Source of the DNA: a virus
DNA: 35,547 bases
Reading direction: 5' to 3' (one strand)
Virus record (IMG/VR): IMGVR_UViG_3300044993_000197
Coordinates: 1-35,547 of that record
Of the stretch, positions 3,100-35,547 are shown one piece after another. The number at the start of each line of letters is the position of its first letter. Position 1 is the stretch's first letter. The notes beneath the pieces are model-generated. The model worked only from the letters and a program-made list of their open reading frames with translations, searched no databases and was not told where the DNA came from. A program made the translations under genes and the position numbers.

Positions 3100-3699
3100 T
3101 TATCGCCCGCCCCTCTCTCTTAACCCCAACTTCAGCATCTCCCTGTTAAGCCTCGCCGCAGAAATACCCAGCGCTTTTGAAATGTCCAAATATCTCATCC
3201 CACTCTCACGCATCCTCTTCGCCTCATCAATCAGCTCTGGCGGCAAATATCGAGAAGGCCTACCCAATACCCGCCCCTTTCGCTTTAACTCCGTCAACGC
3301 CGCCCTAGTACGCTCAGAAATCATCTCGCGCTCAAACTGCGCAAATACAGCGAGCATCTGCATCTGAAGCCTTCCAATAGGAGTTGACATGTCAATCATT
3401 TCCGTCACCGACACAAAATCACAACCCCACTTGGATAAATCATTCAATAAATGAATCGTGTCGCTCACTGAGCGCGAAAACCGATCAAGCTTAAACACAA
3501 TAAATCGCGAATACTCACGACGCTTCACCCTTGAAAGCAACGACTTAAACACAGGCCTATCAATCGAGCCGCCAGACTCCTTCTCGTGAAAAATATCAAA
3601 CTCCAAATTGTTGATCTCACAATACCTGCGACATACCTCAACCTGCGCATCAACCGACTGCTCCTCAGTGGAAACTCGAACATAAATGCAAGCCTTCAC
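3100..3699 (-). CDS. Serine recombinase, resolvase/invertase class
   Basis: This enzyme cuts and rejoins DNA through a 5'-phosphoserine intermediate. The 199-residue length is that of small resolvases and invertases, not large serine integrases. The catalytic serine is in YVRVSTEEQ (Ser10), with LDRFSRS (71-77), QMLAVFAQFEREMISERT (the dimer helix, about 113-131) and a C-terminal helix-turn-helix (about 150-195) preceded by GRPSRY. The start is GTG 3697-3699 with GAGG five bases upstream. It directly follows the small regulator 3708-3884. Possible roles are multimer resolution of a circular genome, inversion of a tail-gene segment, or integration. I saw no invertible segment flanked by inverted repeats, so resolution is my favoured inference. 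Confidence 0.93.
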   Translation of the reverse strand: MKACIYVRVSTEEQSVDAQVEVCRRYCEINNLEFDIFHEKESGGSIDRPVFKSLLSRVKRREYSRFIVFKLDRFSRSVSDTIHLLNDLSKWGCDFVSVTEMIDMSTPIGRLQMQMLAVFAQFEREMISERTRAALTELKRKGRVLGRPSRYLPPELIDEAKRMRESGMRYLDISKALGISAARLNREMLKLGLRERGGR

Positions 3700-3707
3700 A
3701 CAAACCT

Positions 3708-3884
3708 CTATTTTAAATTCTCTGCAATCGTCATCAAATACTTGGCCGCCGTCTTGTTGATCTCTATTCCATTCCTCTCCAACTTCTCCACAACATCCAT
3801 CGGCAACCTAAATCCTATCATCTTCTGCTTAATACCTCGGCGCTTCCTTTTGACAATAACTAAATCAGAAACATTTTTTTTCAT
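3708..3884 (-). CDS. Small ribbon-helix-helix-like DNA-binding protein
   Basis: This 58-residue protein has a basic N-terminus (VKRKRRGIKQK) followed by IGFRLPMDVVEKLERNGIEI and a C-terminal helix. This is the beta strand, helix, turn, helix pattern of CopG/Arc-type repressors. ATG 3882-3884 is chosen over GTG 3888-3890 because GAGG lies five bases before the ATG. It is first in the operon with the recombinase and has a palindromic AT-rich operator candidate at 3898-3914 over its own promoter, so autoregulation is likely. Family assignment rests on pattern only. An antitoxin role is less likely because no toxin partner is seen. Confidence 0.65.
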   Translation of the reverse strand: MKKNVSDLVIVKRKRRGIKQKMIGFRLPMDVVEKLERNGIEINKTAAKYLMTIAENLK

Positions 3885-3897
3885 AATCACCTCGCTA

Positions 3898-3933
3898 TAA
3901 CATCATGTTAACATACTAGCATACACTTAGCAA
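3898..3933 (-). promoter_or_regulatory. Promoter with overlapping palindromic operators
   Basis: On the minus strand TTGCTA (3928-3933), a 17-base spacer and TAACAT (3905-3910) form a plausible sigma70 promoter for the regulator-recombinase operon. The -10 lies inside two overlapping palindromes: TAACATCATGTTA (3898-3910, centre 3904) and ATGTTAACAT (3905-3914). They share AACAT half-sites, the arrangement expected for dimers of a ribbon-helix-helix repressor. Confidence 0.55.
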
Positions 3934-4293
3934 GGGGGGAGGGAAATGTAAAGGGAATTTACTTTTTTCGCATCCGAAGGGGGGTGCCCCCCCTTTTTTC
4001 TTTTTTAAAAAAAGAACAAAAAATACCAAGCCCATGCTATGGCATGGTGCCCATAGCAATATATGTTTGGGTCCATATCTCAAGAATTAAAGAATTAAGG
4101 CTCGGAATATTCGCGCCTACTCGCCAGCTCGCGGCCAGGACTGCGAAAGGCCGCGCGAGATGAATATATGATTTACGACGAAAACGACCATATATGAAAT
4201 AAGACCGAGAGGCAAAGCAAGGTATTGAAAAATAAATTCAGCCGTGGGCTTCTCAGCCCTGGTCGCGAGACATAAATTTCATTTAATTTGAGA
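3934..4293. other. Intergenic control region without a gene
   Basis: No coding frame is convincing here. It holds the G/C hairpin at 3977-3999, two mutually exclusive hairpins at 4032-4057 (CCATGC/GCATGG at 4032-4037 and 4042-4047 against GCTATGG/CCATAGC at 4036-4042 and 4051-4057), a GC-rich patch at about 4115-4160, and a small hairpin GGGCT/AGCCC (4246-4250 with 4255-4259). It separates the minus-strand recombinase operon from the plus-strand gene at 4378. Confidence 0.5.
3977..3999 (+). terminator. G/C-run hairpin followed by T-tract
   Basis: Six G (3979-3984), TG, seven C (3987-3993) and six T (3994-3999) form a textbook intrinsic terminator shape on the plus strand. No plus-strand gene lies immediately upstream; it would stop readthrough antisense to the recombinase operon. 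Such long G/C runs are also hard to sequence, so run length is uncertain. Confidence 0.5.
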
Positions 4294-4348
4294 CGGCGAA
4301 TAAAAATGTTTAAGTTTTGTTGACATTCGCCGATAAGTAAGCTATCTT
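4294..4348 (+). promoter_or_regulatory. Strong sigma70 promoter with inverted repeat
   Basis: TTGACA (4320-4325), exactly 17 bases, then TATCTT (4343-4348) precede the gene at 4378. An exact 8-bp inverted repeat, CGGCGAAT (4294-4301) and ATTCGCCG (4325-4332), brackets the -35 box. One arm lies in the spacer, so a bound repressor or activator is plausible. Confidence 0.7.
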
Positions 4349-4377
4349 AAGAGTAACACATATCAAAGGAGTAAGAG

Positions 4378-4658: not shown

Positions 4659-4706
4659 CGTATCAATAAAGTATTGTTGAGATGGAATTTATTGAGAGCG
4701 GAGTTT

Positions 4707-4737
4707 CGCGCGTTTATATGGGCGTGGCCGCGGGTTT
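4707..4737. repeat. GC-rich 31-bp repeat, copy 1
   Basis: The copy starts CGCGCGTTTATATGGGCGTG and ends GGCCGCGGGTTT. It is identical to the copy at 5375-5405. A partial unit (GTTTATATGGG) follows immediately at 4734-4744. It is strikingly GC-rich compared with flanking DNA. Confidence 0.85.
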
Positions 4738-4804: not shown

Positions 4805-5011
4805 ATGAAAAAAGCTATTTTATTCATAATCATAGGATTAAATATCGGATGCGAGTCCATGGGCGAGTATCAATACATCCACAATCAAGAAGCCTGGGAC
4901 AATTACATGAGATTTATTTCGCCCGAGCCACAAAAAAAACCTACGACGTGTGAATCAACCCCGCAATTTATTTATGGTAAATTTAACGGCTACAAAACAG
5001 TTTGTCGCTAG
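4805..5011 (+). CDS. Small putative lipoprotein
   Basis: This 68-residue protein starts MKKAILFIIIGLNIGCESMG, a short basic start, hydrophobic core and a Gly-Cys at residues 15-16 that could be a lipobox, although Asn at -3 is atypical. The mature part is polar with Trp, Tyr and Pro and two more cysteines. ATG 4805-4807 has AGGAG eight bases upstream; GTG 4796-4798 would leave no spacing. Its stop TAG overlaps that of the convergent gene 5008-5298, within the palindrome GTCGCTAGCGAC (5004-5015), and a terminator follows at 5030-5066. Possible roles are superinfection exclusion or envelope modification (inference). Confidence 0.65.
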   Translation: MKKAILFIIIGLNIGCESMGEYQYIHNQEAWDNYMRFISPEPQKKPTTCESTPQFIYGKFNGYKTVCR

Positions 5012-5298
5012 CGACGCCTATTGTACCGTCGATAGCCCATCTCCTCGGGACTTGGGCTATCGTTTTCTGTGGCGGGGTACCTATCTCGATATTTCATCTC
5101 AATTTCGAGCTGGCGCCGCATCAGTTCTTCATCGCTTAAGGGGGTTTTTATGGGTGAGAAGCCACTGCCAATCTTAGCGCGCATAGCTCGAGCTGCTTTC
5201 GCTCGGTTGCGTTTGATTTCTGCTTCTGCCCTTGCTGCCATTGGCTTGAAGCCTTCTAGCATAAGCGCCCAGGGCGAGGGGTCTTCGGTTTCATCCAT
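5008..5298 (-). CDS. Hypothetical basic protein
   Basis: This 96-residue protein is rich in Arg, Ala and Glu (AARAEAEIKRNRAKAARAMR, about residues 21-40) and ends YRRYNRRR. It probably has a long charged helix and could bind nucleic acid, but no family is recognised. It is convergent with the lipoprotein gene. The ribosome site is weak (AGG about nine bases from the ATG). An opposite-strand frame covers most of the same DNA but reads as low-quality hydrophobic sequence, so I favour this strand. Confidence 0.55.
   Translation of the reverse strand: MDETEDPSPWALMLEGFKPMAARAEAEIKRNRAKAARAMRAKIGSGFSPIKTPLSDEELMRRQLEIEMKYRDRYPATENDSPSPEEMGYRRYNRRR
5030..5066 (+). terminator. Intrinsic terminator for the lipoprotein gene
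   Basis: CGATAGCCC (5030-5038) and GGGCTATCG (5054-5062) form a perfect 9-bp stem with a 15-base loop, followed by TTTT. It lies 18 bases after the plus-strand stop and inside the 3' end of the opposing gene. Confidence 0.65.
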
Positions 5299-5374
5299 AT
5301 TTAAAGCCTATGCTATCTTTTCAGAAATTGTAAAGGCCAGTCTGATCTGGTTTTCACCTCTCAAATATTTTTCA

Positions 5375-5405
5375 CGCGCGTTTATATGGGCGTGGCCGCG
5401 GGTTT
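5375..5405. repeat. GC-rich 31-bp repeat, copy 2
   Basis: Identical in all 31 bases to 4707-4737 and in the same orientation. It lies in the non-coding stretch upstream of the 5008-5298 gene. Confidence 0.85.
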
Positions 5406-5557
5406 TTCGGCCATTATTCAAATTATTATTTTGGTGGATGATCCTCATTGGCCAACCGGACGATTTCGTTTTTGGCTTATTTTTGGCTATTAAAATGATT
5501 TTATTTGGCTCGATATAATTATCCCTATTTGGCGCGTCTTGCGATCTGGCGGTCTTT

Positions 5558-5576
5558 CGCGCCTTTATATGGGCGT
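5558..5576. repeat. GC-rich repeat, half copy 3
   Basis: CGCGCCTTTATATGGGCGT matches the first 19 bases of the repeat with one change. A degenerate unit (GGCGTTTATGCGGCC) links it to copy 4. Confidence 0.75.
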
Positions 5577-5597
5577 AAAGGCGTTTATGCGGCCTTC

Positions 5598-5628
5598 CGC
5601 GCCTTTATATGGGCGTGGCCGCGGGTTT
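5598..5628. repeat. GC-rich 31-bp repeat, copy 4
   Basis: Matches copies 1 and 2 except for C in place of G at position 6. All copies point the same way, at irregular spacing (668, 183 and 40 bp). Confidence 0.85.
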
Positions 5629-5699
5629 CCTCCTCTTAGCTGTTGAAGTGGCGGTGGTGATACCATGCCTTTTAAAGGCCTAAATCCATGAAAACCACA

Positions 5700-5990
5700 A
5701 TAAAGTTTGCACTTTGCACTTAAAATGCACTTAACTTTGATACTAAAATGTAGTTGATATTACTAAGGTTTTTTAGTTTAAGTGCAAAAGTGCAATCTTT
5801 TTTATATATATATTATATATATATTATATATATATAAGGGGTATATAGGAGATATAGGAGATATAGGAGATATAGGAGATATAGAAAGCTCTTTAAAATA
5901 TATGCTAACTTTGCACTTAAACGAATTTCTTAATGATATCAATAACTTAACTTAAAAAAGTTTGCACTTTAACTCTGCACTTTTTACAGT
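5700..5990. other. Candidate replication origin with iterons
   Basis: Eight copies of TGCACTT or its complement occur in under 300 bp: forward at 5708, 5715, 5726, 5912, 5963 and 5976, and reverse at 5780 and 5788. Most sit in a longer TTTGCACTTAA context. They flank an almost pure A/T tract (5797-5837) and four tandem AGGAGATAT units (5847-5882). This is the arrangement of an iteron origin with an unwinding element. It lies just downstream of the primase-helicase gene, the usual partner of such an origin. No gene is visible in 5299-6060. Confidence 0.7.
5847..5882. repeat. Four tandem 9-bp AGGAGATAT units
   Basis: The 9-bp unit AGGAGATAT repeats four times without change, directly after the A/T tract and between two groups of TGCACTT iterons. 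The period is close to one helical turn. Confidence 0.9.
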
Positions 5991-6028
5991 TTTCTTCAAT
6001 GATTTCAACAGCTTAGTAGACCTAAAGA

Positions 6029-6067
6029 GATCTTTGCTCTGTGCGACGCGTCAGAGTTACTCAGATC
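6029..6067 (-). terminator. Imperfect hairpin over the primase-helicase stop
   Basis: GATCT/AGATC (6029-6033 with 6063-6067) and CTCTG/CAGAG (6037-6041 with 6052-6056) stack with internal loops. On the minus strand a short T-rich stretch (TCTTTAGG) follows. It is a weak candidate for the transcript end before the origin region. Confidence 0.35.
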
Positions 6068-8424
6068 GAACCTATTGGTTTTAAGGTTATTCCACAAAAA
6101 TGACGACAACCGTCAATGGTTTTTTCGGCGATTTTTAGCCGTCTCAAAGCCTCAAAAAATTTGATTTTACCGATTTTTGGATGCCTTTTATATGCCTCTA
6201 AATGCCAGTCGCAGAACAGTGCCCACATTTTTTTTCTTTCAAGCAATGAATCTTTGTCATTTCTATCAAAAGTTACCAATACGTCTTGAGGCGTCATTCT
6301 ATTGGGAAAATTTTGACAGACAACTGTCGAAATGATTGCGCCGCTATGTTTGTTATCTTCAGGTTTGGTTATTTCATAAAAAAATGATCCAACAGGATCA
6401 TTCGATAGCTGCCATTCAGCAATCAGTTGTTTTGATTCGTCAGATTGGTAGAATTTTCCTTTTGATTTTATTATGTCTTCAAGCCCTTCTAAAGCGAAGT
6501 TTAAGACGCCTTCTGGGCATGAATCAAAAGCGCGCAGAGAGTAATCTCTGTCTGAGTTATCAGATCCGTCGAAGCTATCATATTTAATAAAGGTCCACCT
6601 TCTATCGTGAGCTTTCGTGCTCCACTCTAAAGTCGGTGGCACCATATTGGCTCCGAATATGTGAACTGTGGGGATGGGCGCCGTTACAATTTTTTTATTT
6701 TTTCTATTTATTGGGAATAAATGTCGGTCTTCTATTTTTTTCACAATTGCGTCAGATATTGGCTTATGGGTTTCAATGTCTAGATCAATGTTTACTAGTC
6801 GGCCTAGCATGGGTTCTAGTCCGAATGATTCGCCCCACGATGTTGGGTCGGTGAAGCTCATCGAATCTTGGTTTCTTAGTCTCATGGCGCATTTAATTAC
6901 TGATGATTTTCCCGTTCCACCAACTCCTACGTTTAAGAATAGGTGGGGGAATATAGGCATAAGCACGACGCCGTACATTTGCTTAATTTGTCTTATTTTT
7001 TCAGCGTTACCGCCTGTTGTTGTTTCGATCATCGATAGGAATTTTTCATTTTTAATGTTTCTATCGACATTATATTTCATAGGTAACACATACAAACAGT
7101 TATCGTCTTGGCTATGAGGTCTAAAATGAAGGGTAAAGCTATCTTCGTTTTTTTTAGCCTCTAATACGCCGTCGAGGAAATTTGCAATAAAGGGATTTTG
7201 TATATAAGGATTAGAGGAGAACGGTTTCATTAGTTTTAAGACGAATTCTTCTATTTGCTTTACTTTAGTAACCCCAGTTTTTCCGTCGAATAACTCTGTA
7301 ATGGCGATAGAGAGTTTTTGTTTTTCGGCGTCTGTCCATTCAACCCAGTGGAGTCCGTTATACGAGAAAACATCTTTATCATATTTTCTAACCAGTGTGC
7401 CAAAGTGGTTTAGTATGTGTTTTGCGATTTCAGCTTGTGAGGGCTCTATTTCTTTTTCTTTGCCGTTTTTTTCGGTCACGATTTCTCTTGGGATTGGTGG
7501 GATTTTGAAAATATCAAAGTCATTTGACATTTTATTTACTGCGGGTTCTTCAACACGTTTTTCTACTTTCCGCCCGCCAGGTCCGTGATTCATAAAAAGC
7601 TCATCAACAAAATCTTTTGCATTTTCTATGTCTTGTTTGTGTTTCCAGTTTCTACTAGGGCAAGAGAAATAATTTTTGTCAGCTTTAAAGTTGTATTTTC
7701 TATCCTCTTTTAATAATCGATTAACGAGTCTATCGAAGTCATAGTTTTTTTTAACTAGTGCGACTCCGAGGGCGGACAATTTGTTATGACTTCCGTGTCG
7801 GCATCGTCCTGGTGAATATTCAGGTAAGTTTACATTTGCGTTTTCGCTTGAGGTTTTATTATCTAATTTTGTTTTATATTTTTTTGACTCATCGTTTAAC
7901 TGTTCTAAAAACTCAATAAATCCTTCTGGAAGCGTTGGGAGGTCATCAATGTCTATTTTATGTAAAGGTGTGCCGATCCATTGATATTTTGAGAATTTCG
8001 GGTGTTTTGACGGCGGGATAATCGTTTGGTTGCCGTTTGATAAGATTTCTACTCCGATATCTATGAATTTTTTTGATTTCTCTCCGTTGTACCTAAAAAA
8101 TTGCGCTGGGCGTCTGTTGGGATTTCCTATCTTTCCGGAAAGTATTGGTGGGAGCTTGGCTGTTATTTTTTTTATGAGCTCTTTATCTTCGGTGTCTATG
8201 TCGACGCAGATGATTTTTGATTGTTCTCCGCAGATGACGCCAATGCCAGTCGCTTTTTGCCAGTATGGTAGGTATTTATCTTGGAAAAAATCAGTTGGTG
8301 TAAGGGTTGACCATTTGGGGACTTTTATTGCTTTCCCTTCTGCTGGACCAACAGGTGCGCCAAGTTTTAGATAATGCTTTGCTTCTTCGATTAGTTCAAA
8401 CGAGCCGTTTGTCAGCTTTGGCAT
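6061..8424 (-). CDS. Primase-polymerase / SF3 helicase replication protein
   Basis: This 787-residue protein combines priming and unwinding. Residues about 10-170 are a bifunctional primase-polymerase domain with the acidic VDID pair (Asp75, Asp77) and a later GVEILSNGNQTIIPPS strand. Residues about 330-480 resemble the D5 N-terminal region. Then comes a superfamily 3 helicase core: Walker A GVGGTGKS (500-507), Walker B NIDLD (545-549) and a sensor Asn in FGANMVPP (591-598). The C-terminal 150 residues are probably a DNA-binding D5-C-like part. It has its own promoter at 8473-8501, and a candidate origin lies immediately downstream. No family A or B DNA polymerase is present, so host polymerase is probably recruited (inference). 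Confidence 0.93.
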   Translation of the reverse strand: MPKLTNGSFELIEEAKHYLKLGAPVGPAEGKAIKVPKWSTLTPTDFFQDKYLPYWQKATGIGVICGEQSKIICVDIDTEDKELIKKITAKLPPILSGKIGNPNRRPAQFFRYNGEKSKKFIDIGVEILSNGNQTIIPPSKHPKFSKYQWIGTPLHKIDIDDLPTLPEGFIEFLEQLNDESKKYKTKLDNKTSSENANVNLPEYSPGRCRHGSHNKLSALGVALVKKNYDFDRLVNRLLKEDRKYNFKADKNYFSCPSRNWKHKQDIENAKDFVDELFMNHGPGGRKVEKRVEEPAVNKMSNDFDIFKIPPIPREIVTEKNGKEKEIEPSQAEIAKHILNHFGTLVRKYDKDVFSYNGLHWVEWTDAEKQKLSIAITELFDGKTGVTKVKQIEEFVLKLMKPFSSNPYIQNPFIANFLDGVLEAKKNEDSFTLHFRPHSQDDNCLYVLPMKYNVDRNIKNEKFLSMIETTTGGNAEKIRQIKQMYGVVLMPIFPHLFLNVGVGGTGKSSVIKCAMRLRNQDSMSFTDPTSWGESFGLEPMLGRLVNIDLDIETHKPISDAIVKKIEDRHLFPINRKNKKIVTAPIPTVHIFGANMVPPTLEWSTKAHDRRWTFIKYDSFDGSDNSDRDYSLRAFDSCPEGVLNFALEGLEDIIKSKGKFYQSDESKQLIAEWQLSNDPVGSFFYEITKPEDNKHSGAIISTVVCQNFPNRMTPQDVLVTFDRNDKDSLLERKKMWALFCDWHLEAYKRHPKIGKIKFFEALRRLKIAEKTIDGCRHFCGITLKPIGSI

Positions 8425-9195: not shown

Positions 9196-10107
9196 GTGAT
9201 AGAGAAAATGTTTTCAGCATTAAATGCTGAGGATGTATCAGCATTAGGTCGGGGTGAGTTTTTTGGTGTAGTGACAGATATGCCTAGTTCGTACTATCAT
9301 TCGCCAGCGCTATCAAAGTATTACAGTTCGTCTGACTTGAAGGTGCTTTATTCAGAATCGCCTAGACATTTTAAAAGATATTTAGAGCAGCGTGGCAGCA
9401 TGAGGCCAAGCGTCGATATGCTGCGTGGATCGATGTTTCACACGCTTCTTCTGGAACCAGAGAATTTTGACCGTGATTATTTTGTAATGCCGGAGTTTGA
9501 TGCGAGAACAAAAGAGGGGAAAGCGATTAGAGATGATGCTCTTTTACAAAAGGGCGACAGAGAAGAGGTGCCTAGTAGTGTATATGAGGAGGCTAAGGGG
9601 ATGGCAATGAGTGTGGCTGCCCACAAGCCATCAGTTGATTTGCTGCTTGGGGCACGGCGCGAGGTTTCGATATTTTTTAGATGTGCATTTTCTGGGCTTT
9701 CAATGAAGGCGCGAGTTGACGCGATTTCTGGGTCTAAAATGATTGAGGTTAAATCAGCGCGCTCAGTAAAGCCGTCGGCATTTGAGAGGCAAGCGTATGA
9801 TCTAAATTATGATCTATCATTGTATCATTATATGCTTGCGATTAATCAGGCTTATGGATTTGATATTGTGAGTGAGTATTATTTTTTGGCGTGCGAGAAT
9901 TATGAGCCGTATGTGCCGCAGTGTTTTAAGGCTAGTGAGCTTTTAATAGAGAGTGGGCACGACAAGTGGGTTGAGGCGGTTAATAAATTAGAACAGGGGT
10001 TAGCGTCTGAGTTTTCGCACGGGTATGTCGTTGATGAGTTTGAACCTTATCCAATTTTAGGTATTCCAAGATGGGCTATAACAAAAGGAGTGAGTGATGT
10101 CGTTTAA
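9196..10107 (+). CDS. PD-(D/E)XK exodeoxyribonuclease (DUF3799/RecE-like)
   Basis: This 303-residue nuclease would resect double-strand ends to give single strands for annealing. The phage exonuclease pattern is clear: YHSPALSKYYSSSDLK (34-49), the motif RGSMFHTLLLEP (77-88), then the active site with Asp175 in KARVDAI and Glu184-Lys186 in MIEVKSA, and the QAYDLNYDLSLYHYMLA helix typical of the fold. GTG 9196-9198 is used with AAGGGG upstream; ATG 9208 is a less well spaced alternative. It opens the plus-strand operon and overlaps the Sak4 gene by 11 bases. Confidence 0.9.
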   Translation: MIEKMFSALNAEDVSALGRGEFFGVVTDMPSSYYHSPALSKYYSSSDLKVLYSESPRHFKRYLEQRGSMRPSVDMLRGSMFHTLLLEPENFDRDYFVMPEFDARTKEGKAIRDDALLQKGDREEVPSSVYEEAKGMAMSVAAHKPSVDLLLGARREVSIFFRCAFSGLSMKARVDAISGSKMIEVKSARSVKPSAFERQAYDLNYDLSLYHYMLAINQAYGFDIVSEYYFLACENYEPYVPQCFKASELLIESGHDKWVEAVNKLEQGLASEFSHGYVVDEFEPYPILGIPRWAITKGVSDVV

Positions 10108-10792
10108 GCTAGCGAGTAAAAAAGATATTAAAATTAAGGCGGCCATTTCTTCGTTGGCTGGGGCTGGGAAAACTTTCGGAGCTCTAAGCGTTGCAAAGGG
10201 GATGATGAACGGCGACATATCGAAAGTGGCGCTTATTCAAACAGAAACAGGGCGTGCGCAGCTTTATACGTCGAGGCTTGGTGCGTTCAATGTTTTAGAT
10301 ATTCATCCGCCTTTCACGCCGCAAAAATTTATTTCGGCCATCGAGGAAGCGGAGAAGATGAAATTTCGACTGGTTATTATTGATAGCTTATCAGATGCGT
10401 GGGGTGGTCTTGGAGGGTGTCTTGATATGCACCAAGAGGCGAGTGACCAATTAAAGAATAGCTTTTCAGCCTGGAAGCGAATAACCCCTCAGTGGGAGGC
10501 ATTGTTAAATAAAATACTTTCTTCTGAACTACATATTTTCTGCACGATAAAAAAGAAGGCTGACTATGTGATTGAAGCAGATGAAAAGGGGAGGCAAGTG
10601 CCTAAGAAAGTGGGGCTTGCTGATGTGATAAGGGAGGGCACTGATTATAGGTTTATGATTCAGTTTGAAATTGATCGCGACTCTCACTTATCGAGAGTGT
10701 CGAAAGACAATACTGGTTTATTTGAAGGGCGAGAGCCATTTTTGTTAACCGAGGCTATTGGTAAGGAAATTAGAGATTGGTGTTTGGAATAA
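10097..10792 (+). CDS. Sak4-like RecA-fold ATPase (single-strand annealing)
   Basis: This 231-residue protein has the AAA/RecA-core layout of phage Sak4 proteins: Walker A AGAGKT (21-26), Walker B RLVIIDSLSD with Asp96, and a middle segment containing WEALLNKILSSELHIFCTIKKK. In characterised phages Sak4 anneals single strands with help from a phage SSB, and here an SSB gene follows directly. ATG 10097-10099 has AAGGAG six bases upstream. Together with the exonuclease this forms a two-component recombination system like Red. Confidence 0.88.
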   Translation: MSFKLASKKDIKIKAAISSLAGAGKTFGALSVAKGMMNGDISKVALIQTETGRAQLYTSRLGAFNVLDIHPPFTPQKFISAIEEAEKMKFRLVIIDSLSDAWGGLGGCLDMHQEASDQLKNSFSAWKRITPQWEALLNKILSSELHIFCTIKKKADYVIEADEKGRQVPKKVGLADVIREGTDYRFMIQFEIDRDSHLSRVSKDNTGLFEGREPFLLTEAIGKEIRDWCLE

Positions 10793-10827
10793 ATTTAAAT
10801 TAAGAATAAAGAAAGGAAGTCGTATTT

Positions 10828-11298
10828 ATGTCACTAAATAAAGTATTCTTGCAGGGTAATTTGGGGAAAGATCCAGTGCTTAAGCAGGTAAAAGACACTT
10901 ATGTGTGTGAGTTTCCTCTGGCCACAAGCGAACAGGTAAAAGGGCAAGATGGAACTTATTCCAGCAAAGCGACATGGCATAATATTGTTGTGTGGGGAAA
11001 GCAAGCCGAGAATAGCGCAAAGTTTTTAACCAAGGGAAGCTCTGCGCTTATTGAAGGGCGCATACAAGTTAGATCATGGGAGAAGGATGGGGTTACTCAG
11101 TACAAGACAGAGATTGTCGCCGACAGGGTTTTGTTTTTAAATAGGCCAAAAGATGGACGGGCTGAGGCAGATGGCGGTCAGCCTGGTGTACCTATGGACA
11201 CACCGACGTCAGAAGATGAATTCGGGTTTAGCGAGCCAAAGAAACATATCAAGAACTACGCTCCGCAAACGCAAGAAGAGGCTAGCCAATGGGGGTAA
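10828..11298 (+). CDS. ssb: Single-stranded DNA-binding protein
   Basis: This 156-residue protein has a bacterial-type SSB OB-fold at residues 1-106: NKVFLQGNLGKDP, ATWHNIVVWGKQAENSAKFL and ALIEGRIQVRSW are hallmark strands. The tail is polar and lacks the usual acidic DDIPF tip, ending EASQWG. The phage SSB may therefore not recruit host repair proteins through that tip. It partners the Sak4 protein upstream (family knowledge) and protects replication forks. AAGGAAG precedes the ATG. It overlaps the next gene by ten bases. Confidence 0.95.
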   Translation: MSLNKVFLQGNLGKDPVLKQVKDTYVCEFPLATSEQVKGQDGTYSSKATWHNIVVWGKQAENSAKFLTKGSSALIEGRIQVRSWEKDGVTQYKTEIVADRVLFLNRPKDGRAEADGGQPGVPMDTPTSEDEFGFSEPKKHIKNYAPQTQEEASQWG

Positions 11299-21538: not shown

Positions 21539-21669
21539 TTGCTACCCCCCCCCTTGATTTTCTCTTCGGCTAGTGCCATTTTGGTTCCAATAATGAGTGC
21601 GATGTTGTGGATATCTCTTTGCATTGTGTGGATATCTTTAGAGTTGTTTTCTTTAATTGCTTTCACCAT
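21529..21669 (-). CDS. 46-residue duplicate of the upstream coil module
   Basis: Reading from ATG 21667-21669 gives a protein starting MVKAIKENNSKDIHTMQRDI and containing HNIALIIGTKMALAEEK, ending in GGGSKWK. It matches the C-terminal half of the neighbouring protein (KDIHTIQRDIHNLALIIGTERAKAEE). The frame is the same as that gene's, separated only by its TGA stop, so a tandem duplication left a second module. The GAGCAAAG before the ATG is a modest ribosome site. A run of nine G's (coding strand) encodes the glycines and could be miscounted. It lacks a membrane segment, so it may be a soluble partner or antiholin-like regulator (inference). Confidence 0.55.
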   Translation of the reverse strand: MVKAIKENNSKDIHTMQRDIHNIALIIGTKMALAEEKIKGGGSKWK

Positions 21670-21696
21670 TCTTTGCTCGGACCTTAGTTCTGAAAT

Positions 21697-21939
21697 TCAT
21701 TTTTTCCCCTTTCTTGCTTCTTCAGCCTTAGCCCTTTCTGTTCCAATAATAAGCGCAAGATTGTGGATATCTCTTTGGATCGTATGGATGTCCTTTACCA
21801 CCTGATCCAAGATGGCCTTTGAAACATTAGATTGGTTCTGCGCTTCATTGATCTCATCTTTCAGTTTAATGTGCGAGGCCCACACCGAGCCAACAATAGT
21901 GACGATGATTGAAATAAGTTCGGTCAGCGACCAGCTCAT
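21697..21939 (-). CDS. Membrane-anchored coiled-coil protein of the lysis cassette
   Basis: This 80-residue protein has an N-terminal membrane segment (LISIIVTIVGSVWASHI, about 8-24) followed by a coiled-coil with KDIHTIQRDIHNLALIIGTE. The topology resembles XhlA-type or holin-associated proteins. Its ATG overlaps the previous stop (ATGA). The coil is duplicated downstream at 21529-21669. A holin, antiholin or assembly role is possible. Confidence 0.65.
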   Translation of the reverse strand: MSWSLTELISIIVTIVGSVWASHIKLKDEINEAQNQSNVSKAILDQVVKDIHTIQRDIHNLALIIGTERAKAEEARKGKK

Positions 21940-22137: not shown

Positions 22138-23562
22138 TTAAGTCTTGATGATATAGTTCACGTTTGCGTTCTCGTGTCTTGTGTGTTCAGGAGAATCTGG
22201 GGTTGACTCCACCAAGGGGTTATTCGCTAGTCCACTCGATGTGGTTGTATATCGCCAAGATCCAGAAGCCCCAGCGGCTCCAAATGCTTCAGTGCCATCA
22301 CTCCTGTGGCCTTGCCTGTGGTAGTGACTTCCTGGAGCGTTATCTTGGTACGAGCCAACATTTGCACCTGTATTTCCGCCTGAGAATTCAGCGTAACGAT
22401 CTGCTGCCGAGATATCAACAAACTCTCTTATCACAAGAGAGTTAGTTCCACTTATAGAAACCTTCACGTTGGCAAGGGCATTGGCTCGGCTAGATGCAAA
22501 AGCCAAAGTATTCGCATCTACGACTATAATCCAATATGTATCTCCTGCCCTTGAGGATATTCCATTTAGCGAACCTGAAATTCGCTTCACTTTCGTTCCA
22601 GTTCTTGTGAATCCATGTGCGGTGAAGGTCGCATTATTGGAAGATACAGTTCCCGATCCAGTTGCTTGGACTGGGTTTTTTACCCCCTGGACTACACGCC
22701 CCCTTAAGTCCGGCAGATTAAATGTTGTCGAGCCATCACCCTCACCCCATGCCGTCCCGATTGCAGCGAAAAGATTAGCGTATGATGTTCTTGAAACGGC
22801 TGAACCATCGCACAGAAGGTATCCACTCGGCACTGATGCACCACCAAATGCCATTATCATTCCCGCAGGGATTGCGATGGTAGACCCAATAGGTACCCAC
22901 GTAGATCCATTATCGAACTGCACGGTAGCCGTATCTGACACATAAATTAGTCGCCCTGCGTTTCCATTGGCTGGCTTGTTGGAATCAATATAGTCTTCCA
23001 ATCGAGTTGATATCTTGGCAAGAGTTGAGGCAGACGAACCTTCAGCTGTCGCATCTCCACCTGGGACAGTCTGCAATATTCCATTTGCACTTCTGTGAAG
23101 TCGTACGTTATTGTTGGCATTCCCACTACTACCGATAATACTTCCAATAGCTACCCACGCCGATCCATTATCAAATTGTACTGAGCTTTTATCTGACACA
23201 TAAATTAGTCGCCCTGCGTTTCCATTGGCTGGCTTGTTGGAATCAATATAGTCTTCTAATCGAGTTGATATCTTAGCAAGAGTTGAAGCGGACGAACCTT
23301 CAGCTGTCGTATCTCCACCTGGGACAGTTTGTAACACCCCATCTGCACTTCTGTGAAAGCGCACGTTATTGTTGGCCGTTCCATTATTGCCGATGACACA
23401 CTTATCATCATTTCTTAAAAGAGCTCTTATGCTTGAGCCATCATCGACCTTAACTCTGTTCTCCGTTGTGTTTCTAAATATCTTACCTGCGACCCCAGCC
23501 GACGGATCTGAAGATAAGTTTTCAAGACAAGCTTCTTTTAGTTCTGAATAAAATAAAGGCAT
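22138..23562 (-). CDS. Tail fibre with collar domain and two internal repeats
   Basis: This 474-residue fibre has four parts. Residues 1-61 are the probable virion-attachment end. Residues 62-147 and 148-233 are two near-identical 86-residue repeats containing STRLEDYIDSNKPANGNAG and VQFDNGS-W. A phage tail collar domain follows (about 236-295: IPAGMIMAFGGASVPSGYLL, TFNLPDLRGRV). The end has the His-rich loop GSHYHRQGHRSDG and closes NVNYIIKT, typical of collar-type fibre tips. It recognises the host surface. AAGGAGA precedes the ATG. The repeats could change fibre length by recombination. Confidence 0.88.
   Translation of the reverse strand: MPLFYSELKEACLENLSSDPSAGVAGKIFRNTTENRVKVDDGSSIRALLRNDDKCVIGNNGTANNNVRFHRSADGVLQTVPGGDTTAEGSSASTLAKISTRLEDYIDSNKPANGNAGRLIYVSDKSSVQFDNGSAWVAIGSIIGSSGNANNNVRLHRSANGILQTVPGGDATAEGSSASTLAKISTRLEDYIDSNKPANGNAGRLIYVSDTATVQFDNGSTWVPIGSTIAIPAGMIMAFGGASVPSGYLLCDGSAVSRTSYANLFAAIGTAWGEGDGSTTFNLPDLRGRVVQGVKNPVQATGSGTVSSNNATFTAHGFTRTGTKVKRISGSLNGISSRAGDTYWIIVVDANTLAFASSRANALANVKVSISGTNSLVIREFVDISAADRYAEFSGGNTGANVGSYQDNAPGSHYHRQGHRSDGTEAFGAAGASGSWRYTTTSSGLANNPLVESTPDSPEHTRHENANVNYIIKT
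22864..23379. repeat. Two 258-bp direct repeats in the fibre gene
   Basis: The units at about 23122-23379 and 22864-23121 encode the two 86-residue fibre repeats. Long blocks are identical at DNA level (for example around 22935-23075 and 23193-23333), so the duplication is recent or kept uniform by recombination. Confidence 0.85.
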
Positions 23563-34428: not shown

Positions 34429-34724
34429 ATAGGTTTAAGATTAAAACTAAAAAAATAAAAAAGTACACCAAAACCTTAAAATAACCGTCAAAAAAATGAC
34501 AGCCTTTAGTCCTAGTCTAGCGTTTATTACTCTCTTAAATACGCAAGGCCATAGAGAGCGAACAAAAATGTAATCACACACAATCAACTAATTACAGTCG
34601 CTGGACAGAGAAAAGTCCGGTGCAACTTTAATTGAAGTTATGACAAATACAGAATTAGAAAGTCAAGGGATCGCTGCCAAATAAACCAATTTATTTAGGA
34701 TCATATTAAATAGCGTCACAAAAA
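34429..34724. other. Leader-like gap before the packaging genes
   Basis: No gene is visible. The first 60 bases are very A-rich on the plus strand. Two tandem hairpins follow on the plus strand: CTGGAC/GTCCGG (34601-34606 with 34615-34620, loop AGAGAAAA) and AACTT/AAGTT (34624-34628 with 34635-34639). The first pairs fully only in plus-strand RNA (U-G wobble). On the minus strand TTGACT (34661-34666) has only a weak CATAAC (34637-34642) 18 bases on. This gap could hold the late promoter or a regulatory RNA. Confidence 0.4.
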
Positions 34725-34967
34725 TTAACCGCCACACTCTTTAACCCACTCGTTGTAAAGATCCGCAACCCTGAAAACTCTATCAGAGCTGCCCACAACG
34801 GCACTCATGTACGAGAAAAACGACATCTTATCTCTATTATTTCCCAGTTCCCGCGCTGTGCCCGTAACACCATCTTGCACCCGCCCTCGTAAAGGACTGT
34901 GAGAATCTTGTGATTTTTGAAGTGCTGCACCCTCTCGTCTATCCTCTGACTTTTGCACGTCACACAT
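34725..34967 (-). CDS. Uncertain small protein
   Basis: The 80-residue frame has a Ser/Arg/Gly-rich first half that looks poorly structured and a better second half, MSFFSYMSAVVGSSDRVFRVADLYNEWVKECGG-like in character (given here only by its ends: MSFFSY to KECGG). The ATG at 34965-34967 lacks a convincing ribosome site; an internal ATG near 34825 preceded by AGAGATAAG is an alternative giving about 33 residues. It may be a remnant. Its 5' end overlaps another short open frame at 34968-35062. Confidence 0.35.
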   Translation of the reverse strand: MCDVQKSEDRREGAALQKSQDSHSPLRGRVQDGVTGTARELGNNRDKMSFFSYMSAVVGSSDRVFRVADLYNEWVKECGG

Positions 34968-35078: not shown

Positions 35079-35330
35079 TTAAGCCCTGCCCTCAAGCCTT
35101 GCACGCGGAACCACCATCCGTTCAACTTTTATCACCGCTTTTTGCAAATCATCATCCGTGTGGATATCAAGAAGAGCTAAAATCTTAAAAACTTTCTCCG
35201 ATGCTAGATCGGTGTGACCATTTAAATATCTACTGATTGAAATTCTTGAGATGCCAAGTTTTTCGGCAACTAAGGCCTGACTAATTCCTAGCCTTCTAAG
35301 CACAAATTTAATTTTTTCGTGCCGCTTCAT
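35079..35330 (-). CDS. Cro/CI-type helix-turn-helix regulator
   Basis: This 83-residue protein has a classical HTH_3 domain: helix 2 and 3 in ISQALVAEKLGISRISISRY (residues 16-35), then LNGHTDLASEKVFKILALL. The last 25 residues are basic with no peptidase or dimerisation domain, so it resembles Cro or a short antirepressor-type regulator more than full CI. ATG 35328-35330 is preferred over GTG 35334-35336 because AGGGAG is then at good spacing. It overlaps the Ala-rich gene stop by ATGA, so it is made from the same transcript. Confidence 0.85.
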   Translation of the reverse strand: MKRHEKIKFVLRRLGISQALVAEKLGISRISISRYLNGHTDLASEKVFKILALLDIHTDDDLQKAVIKVERMVVPRARLEGRA

Positions 35331-35547
35331 TTGCACTCCCTAATTAGTTCCAAAAGTTTATTGGCAAATTTACTGTATTCTTTTTGTTTAGCAGCATCAG
35401 CAACAGCATAAGCAGCATCCGCAGCATAAGCAGCATAAGCAGCATCAACAGCATCAGCATTAGCAGCATAAGCAGCAACAGCGGCAACATAAGCAGCATT
35501 AGCAGCAGCAGCAGTATAAGCAGCATTAGCAGCATAAGCAGCATTAG
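35327..35547 (-). CDS. Ala-rich repeat protein, C-terminal part (continues from base 1)
   Basis: This is the other end of the junction-spanning 266-residue gene. Bases 35420-35327 supply the last 31 codons: Ala-rich units, then KQKEYSKFANKLLELIRECK and TGA. Bases 35421-35547 duplicate 1-127. The tail KLLELIRECK equals that of the paralogue at 881-1504, which independently confirms that the circle closes in frame. AGGGAG within the last codons serves as ribosome site for the HTH gene. Confidence 0.85.
   Translation of the reverse strand, partial: NAAYAANAAYTAAAANAAYVAAVAAYAANADAVDAAYAAYAADAAYAVADAAKQKEYSKFANKLLELIRECK
35421..35547. repeat. Right copy of the 127-bp terminal identity
   Basis: Identical to bases 1-127. 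See the left copy for the interpretation as a circular assembly overlap. Confidence 0.9.

Follow-up and report, generated by a model that had tools for sequence, protein, structure and literature searches.

The viral record IMGVR_UViG_3300044993_000197, examined here over its full 35,547 bp (the window), ends in an exact 127-bp direct terminal repeat and thus represents a circle of 35,420 bp. The largest gap among its called genes is a 762-bp non-coding stretch bounded by the end of a leftward gene for a 787-amino-acid (aa) primase-helicase and by the start of a small leftward open reading frame (ORF) at 5008–5298. Within this gap, positions 5700–5990 hold repeated TGCACTT words, an A/T-only tract and a tandem 9-bp array. 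This region is very probably an iteron-type replication origin lying beside its initiator, a protein that joins a PrimPol primase to a superfamily 3 (SF3) helicase.

The initial annotation described eight TGCACTT sites in both orientations around a 40-bp A/T tract and four perfect 9-bp repeats, directly downstream of a replication protein, and every one of these elements is present as described. Six of the sites are forward and two are reverse, and the A/T tract separates three forward and two reverse sites on its left from three forward sites on its right. The tract is exactly 40 bp long, and the window holds four copies of the word AGGAGATAT, all perfect and in tandem (5847–5882). The region occupies the 3′ side of the minus-strand 787-aa gene, which ends at 6061, whereas the outermost iteron ends at 5982. 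Alignment of the eight sites yields a longer core, TTTGCACTTAAA, that is exact in three of them and carries one mismatch in a fourth. No match to the DnaA box TTATNCACA was found within 5423–6711 with up to one mismatch allowed.

The clustering of these sites is far beyond what chance produces. The window contains 15 copies of TGCACTT against 6.4 expected, a count that none of 100 shuffles reaches, and this excess is due to the cluster, wherein 8 of the 15 copies fall within 275 bp (5708–5982). The remaining seven lie dispersed, at a density close to that expected by chance. When 150 order-3 Markov genomes were searched for comparable 7-mers over a 275-bp span, and when the region itself was simulated 5,000 times, the biggest cluster obtained under either null held five copies.

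The same region also contains the weakest duplex of the whole genome. The minimum of computed stability is centred at 5823, 5853 or 5881 when windows of 50, 100 or 300 bp are used, respectively, and at the 50-bp scale the value at 5823 is −0.87 kcal/mol per step, compared with −1.05 for the next-best site.

A further line of evidence comes from base composition and makes no use of the repeats. If forks are bidirectional, genes of a given strand are leading-strand genes in one half of the circle and lagging-strand genes in the opposite half, so that GC skew at third codon positions should differ between arms. Minus-strand genes on the arm right of 5850 have a coding-strand skew of −0.06 and those on the opposite arm one of +0.26, and the best origin among the tested positions lies at 5.5–6.0 kb. 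With genes of both strands included, the optimum spans 5.25–7.0 kb; position 5850 ranks second of 142, with a value not attained in any of 2,000 gene permutations. GC skew taken over the whole genome, with its detrended minimum at 3926, was dropped in favour of this codon-position test because it is too confounded by gene direction. The repeat count, the duplex stability and the GC skew were the computational checks put forward with the initial annotation; the first two single out the region that it had named, and the codon-position skew agrees with it.

Table 1. Features of the proposed origin and of the adjoining replication genes (positions in the window).
Feature	Position	Strand	Remarks
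Non-coding gap with proposed origin (core 5700–5990)	5299–6060	.	762 bp, largest gap among called genes
Left outer iterons	5708–5732	+	TGCACTT at 5708, 5715, 5726
Left inner iterons (TTTAAGTGCAAAAGTGCAAT)	5780–5794	-	Reverse orientation, 5780 and 5788
40-bp A/T-only tract, proposed melting site	5798–5837	.	Three TTATATATATA units at 5802–5835; lowest duplex stability of record
Tandem 9-bp array	5843–5884	+	4.7 copies of ATATAGGAG; purine-rich strand
Right iteron (TTTGCACTTAAA core)	5912–5918	+	Word positions, site alignment
Right outer iterons	5963–5982	+	TGCACTT at 5963 and 5976
787-aa primase-helicase, proposed initiator	6061–8424	-	Pfam Prim-Pol, DUF5906, sub-threshold D5_N; PHROG 1156 DNA primase
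SF3/D5-type helicase region	6106–7512	-	Walker A at aa 500–508, from alignment
C-terminal winged-helix-like segment, aa 724–776	6097–6255	-	Two helices and beta hairpin, predicted
PrimPol domain, aa 17–163	7936–8376	-	PF09250, E 7.8e-12
Recombination/replication accessory genes (exonuclease, AAA_24 ATPase, SSB)	9196–11298	+	Profile matches

The PrimPol domain of the 787-aa protein scores 46.4 bits against PF09250, above the curated cut-off of 22.8, and the fold of this domain matches the prim-pol domain of pRN1 ORF904 (Z 12.2). The closest solved fold to the helicase half is the SaPI5 primase-helicase, to which the model of aa 305–773 (helicase to C-terminus) aligns with Z 28.6 and a root-mean-square deviation of 5.4 over 401 residues; the VIA-align listing covers mainly aa 305–780, and families missing from it are neither supported nor discounted. 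The match to TIGR01613, the P4-family primase-helicases, falls below threshold (E 2.3e-10; 39.8 bits versus a cut-off of 108.7), and judged by this profile the protein is a divergent relative of that family that we do not file as a member. The predicted C-terminal segment is a candidate iteron-binding domain.

Phages with known origins permit the same measurements to be evaluated. In the dairy Streptococcus phage Sfi21 (NC_000872), the annotated origin at 34487–34784, directly 3′ of the primase gene, ranks first in the word-cluster scan (AGTAAC, nine copies), in low duplex stability (34617) and in skew. Its organization resembles that described here, in that a non-coding element of about 300 bp directly follows the gene for a P4-family/D5-type primase, an A/T tract with the weakest duplex of that genome is enclosed by short words of either orientation, and Sak4-like and SSB genes share one module. 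A short purine run (AGAGAGAGA) borders the Sfi21 tract. The two phages differ in that Sfi21 encodes its PrimPol and its helicase separately rather than as a fusion, uses another word and is without a 9-bp tandem array.

In phage P4, crr and ori are the two top word clusters. The P4 alpha protein (777 aa) has the same Pfam helicase domains as the 787-aa protein, crr carries type-1 octamers in both orientations directly 3′ of the alpha gene, and ori contains three tandem 10-bp type-2 repeats that are comparable to the tandem 9-bp array. The type-2 repeat CCACTTAAAG even has CACTTAAA in common with the iteron core, possibly by chance. Unlike the phage described here, P4 uses a Toprim primase rather than PrimPol, a different word, and two sites about 5 kb apart; a second TGCACTT cluster, as such a two-site layout would have, was sought across the window and none was found.

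The nearest relative of this phage, IMGVR_UViG_3300021437_000034 (G006; 43.8 kb; loci L067 and L127–L129), provides a further comparison. Virion genes of the two are about 40–61% identical (terminase 52%, portal 61%, capsid-like 55%). The G006 initiator (L067:3984–6473) is homologous in its helicase and C-terminal parts (34–37%), whereas its front is a Toprim_3 primase in place of PrimPol, a difference that amounts to a primase exchange inside one phage group. The top word cluster of the whole G006 contig consists of eight GGGGCA/TGCCCC copies at 21609–21838, straddling the stop codon of the helicase gene and the gap that follows, and scores 11.5 compared with 7.5 or less in 60 simulations. 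More sites of the GGGCAAAA type lie at 21888 and 21954, past an A/T-rich stretch. The G006 skew optimum is 20.75–22.25 kb, with 21890 ranking sixth of 176. Thus, the two contigs agree in position and layout and differ in the word, as expected if each initiator has its own binding sites.

Beyond G006, no close homologue was found by searching with either the whole 787-aa protein or its G006-aligned helicase part, and G001 and G002, which are relatives by their structural genes, are without a recognisable homologue of the initiator. A blastn search of the origin DNA against annotated phages gave no match. Likewise, a search of IMG/VR for the iteron pair returned 39 contigs; a comparable two-sided cluster is absent from all of them, and so is a queried initiator next to the words, although one weak match to the BPP-1 primase was seen, in L170. 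Since TGCACTT is not clustered beside the queried initiators elsewhere, the word looks private to this phage. The combined observations give a well-supported origin to a phage with almost no sequence relatives.

We favour an origin because the word cluster, the least stable DNA and the skew-predicted position fall together on the 3′ flank of the initiator gene, because G006 repeats the arrangement with another word, and because the Sfi21 origin behaves alike in the same tests. The explanation that accounts for these observations jointly, to which we assign a probability of about 0.86, is that 5700–5990 is a theta-type origin of a circularising phage, opened by the adjoining 787-aa protein via the TGCACTT iterons. 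The protein would use its C-terminal winged-helix-like domain to bind the iterons on either side, and SF3 helicase rings would assemble facing the middle, as we infer from PICI/SaPI (phage-inducible chromosomal island/Staphylococcus aureus pathogenicity island) and D5 relatives. These rings would melt the A/T tract, whose duplex weakness is computed. The single strand at this tract and at the purine-rich array could then be loaded and primed by the PrimPol domain, after which two forks would leave in opposite directions, consistent with the computed base skew of the two genome halves. The host would have to supply the replicative polymerase, because no such enzyme was recognised in the phage genes that were scanned. 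By analogy with P4, the AGGAGATAT array may be a second repeat type like the type-2 repeats of ori; it is also possible that it is a site for single-strand loading or priming.

Several observations weigh against this interpretation. The skew optimum is a plateau about 2–3 kb wide in which adjacent positions are not independent, and therefore the skew places the origin only to about 2 kb; in addition, gene class is confounded with position in this test. The P4 skew optimum falls at crr rather than at ori. The C-terminal segment is modelled at middling confidence, with predicted local distance difference test (pLDDT) scores of about 75 for aa 730–760 and about 40–50 at the hairpin. Finally, the 3′ flanks of 25 distinct distant PHROG-1156 loci were scored and are mostly without a cluster, such that no general rule emerges; scores above 5 were obtained only for L066, L067, L106 (a 7-bp microsatellite) and L118.

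Short repeats in two orientations within a non-coding gap would also suit operators, and the phage encodes an HTH_3 protein. The TGCACTT sites might then serve a phage regulator, for instance the Cro/CI-like protein at 35079–35336 or the 60-aa protein at 3708–3890, that controls the gene at 5008–5298 or antisense transcription. However, the gap begins at the 3′ end of a gene, and promoter-like sites are no commoner in the region than in shuffles (3 versus 2.9). Operators would also leave unexplained why the words sit at the skew optimum and at the weakest duplex of the genome, and why G006 and Sfi21 have equivalents, and we regard this possibility as unlikely. Iteron arrays double as centromeres, and the repeats could instead serve a plasmid-like prophage as a centromere-like partition site or in incompatibility, a role for which the 60-aa protein, whose only match is a weak one to a phage transcriptional-regulator family, might be enlisted. 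Yet none of the scanned ORFs was recognised as ParA-, ParM- or ParB-like, and what adjoins the site is a replication protein rather than a partition operon, which makes this explanation very improbable.

We give equally little credence to a pRN1-type stem-loop as the origin, with TGCACTT incidental or auxiliary. There is precedent in pRN1, for which a stem-loop of about 100 nt located 3′ of the gene serves as the origin of a PrimPol-SF3 replicon, and the same was proposed for Bordetella phage BIP-1 (PMC4234260). The single-strand fold of 5640–6060 is indeed more stable than expected (z = −2.9), but it consists mainly of A/T pairs and owes most to the A/T tract and to pairing between iterons, and in the inverted repeats of the window no long stem that contains GC pairs, such as pRN1 has, was found. 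In addition, the iteron cluster exceeds chance by far and has a counterpart in G006. Rfam families and tRNAs were looked for and none was found. That the repeats are an artefact of chance or low complexity, as might be suspected from the A/T-rich region and from Ala-rich coding repeats elsewhere in the window, is scarcely credible, as it is contradicted by simulations of genome and region that never exceed five copies.

An iteron origin of this kind is already known. The initial annotation was correct that the words are unfamiliar, whereas the suggestion that the architecture is unusual is less well supported: Sfi21, PICI/SaPI elements and P4 each combine a primase-helicase of the P4/D5 type with iterons that surround an A/T tract, and it is the word that is new. 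The SaPI/PICI initiator recognises iterons immediately 3′ of its own gene that flank an AT-rich region (PMC6092414), and in 2018 the PICI authors considered this layout common to no other known replicon. Despite that statement, the layouts of Sfi21 and of this phage are closely similar to it. In EcCICFT073, SaPIbov1 and other islands, as here, initiator-linked iterons surround an A/T region and the initiator gene adjoins. With respect to the features of PICI- and Sfi21-type origins, our region has the tract at 5798–5837 flanked by five iterons on its left and three on its right, lies 3′ of the initiator gene, and shows a switch in base skew with a broad optimum. PICIs differ in being satellites without a full virion gene set, and the initiator likeness found here is to the SaPI5 fold. 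The record carries terminase, portal-like, virion structural and tail-fibre genes and therefore lies outside the definition of a PICI satellite.

Another SaPI5-like helicase, Cch2 of the staphylococcal cassette chromosome mec (SCCmec), needs only its C-terminal domain to bind AAGTG repeats (PMC7581432). These direct repeats lie just 3′ of the Cch2 gene, and AAGTG is contained in AAGTGCA. Unlike the system described here, Cch2 has three iterons only and a separate polymerase, and the common 5-mer may be due to chance. A further parallel is pRN1 ORF904, which combines PrimPol, SF3 helicase and a C-terminal winged helix and has its origin 3′ of the gene, although pRN1 is an archaeal plasmid and uses a stem-loop rather than iterons. 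The pRN1 authors suggested stem-loops for PrimPol-SF3-winged-helix proteins, including that of BIP-1, to which BPP-1 is nearly identical (PMC4234260). The literature had leaned to stem-loops, whereas the present case indicates that PrimPol-type phage initiators can pair with iteron origins.

In BPP-1, an unannotated site about 0.5 kb 3′ of the PrimPol gene (L137:26607–26710) has two TTTGCCTCG words and two inverted copies around the least stable DNA of that genome. The BPP-1 skew optimum is 28.75–30.5 kb and this site ranks 16th of 170; therefore, the site stays a suggested origin candidate. We tentatively consider, at somewhat less than even odds, that PrimPol- and Toprim-SF3 phages constitute one replicon type, wherein the helicase and C-terminal part would remain linked to a 3′ iteron origin while the primase is exchanged and the word changes fast. 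If so, this type would include BPP-1, even though a stem-loop was proposed for its near-identical sister BIP-1. When repeat cluster, lowest duplex stability and two-arm codon skew are combined, known origins are found again, and the approach could be used to map those of many uncultured phages.

Other features of the record can be noted. The AAA_24 ATPase of the accessory module is probably Sak4-like. A 40-nt repeat around CGCG(T/C)TTATATGGGCGTGGCCGCGGGTTT is present in four plus-strand copies (4698–4737, 5366–5405, 5549–5588 and 5589–5628), all of which sit in non-coding gaps left of the origin. The gene for a small serine recombinase (3100–3699) follows that for the 60-aa protein, and the pair is located beside a 487-bp gap at 3891–4377. 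Ala-rich coding repeats of the minus-strand GCT GCT TAT type occupy 1–270, 952–1061 and 35390–35547; they span the circle junction, recur in a neighbouring gene and enclose the 127-bp terminal repeat. The tail-fibre gene (22138–23562) holds a 258-bp tandem duplication at 22886–23376 (1.9 copies, 89% matches).
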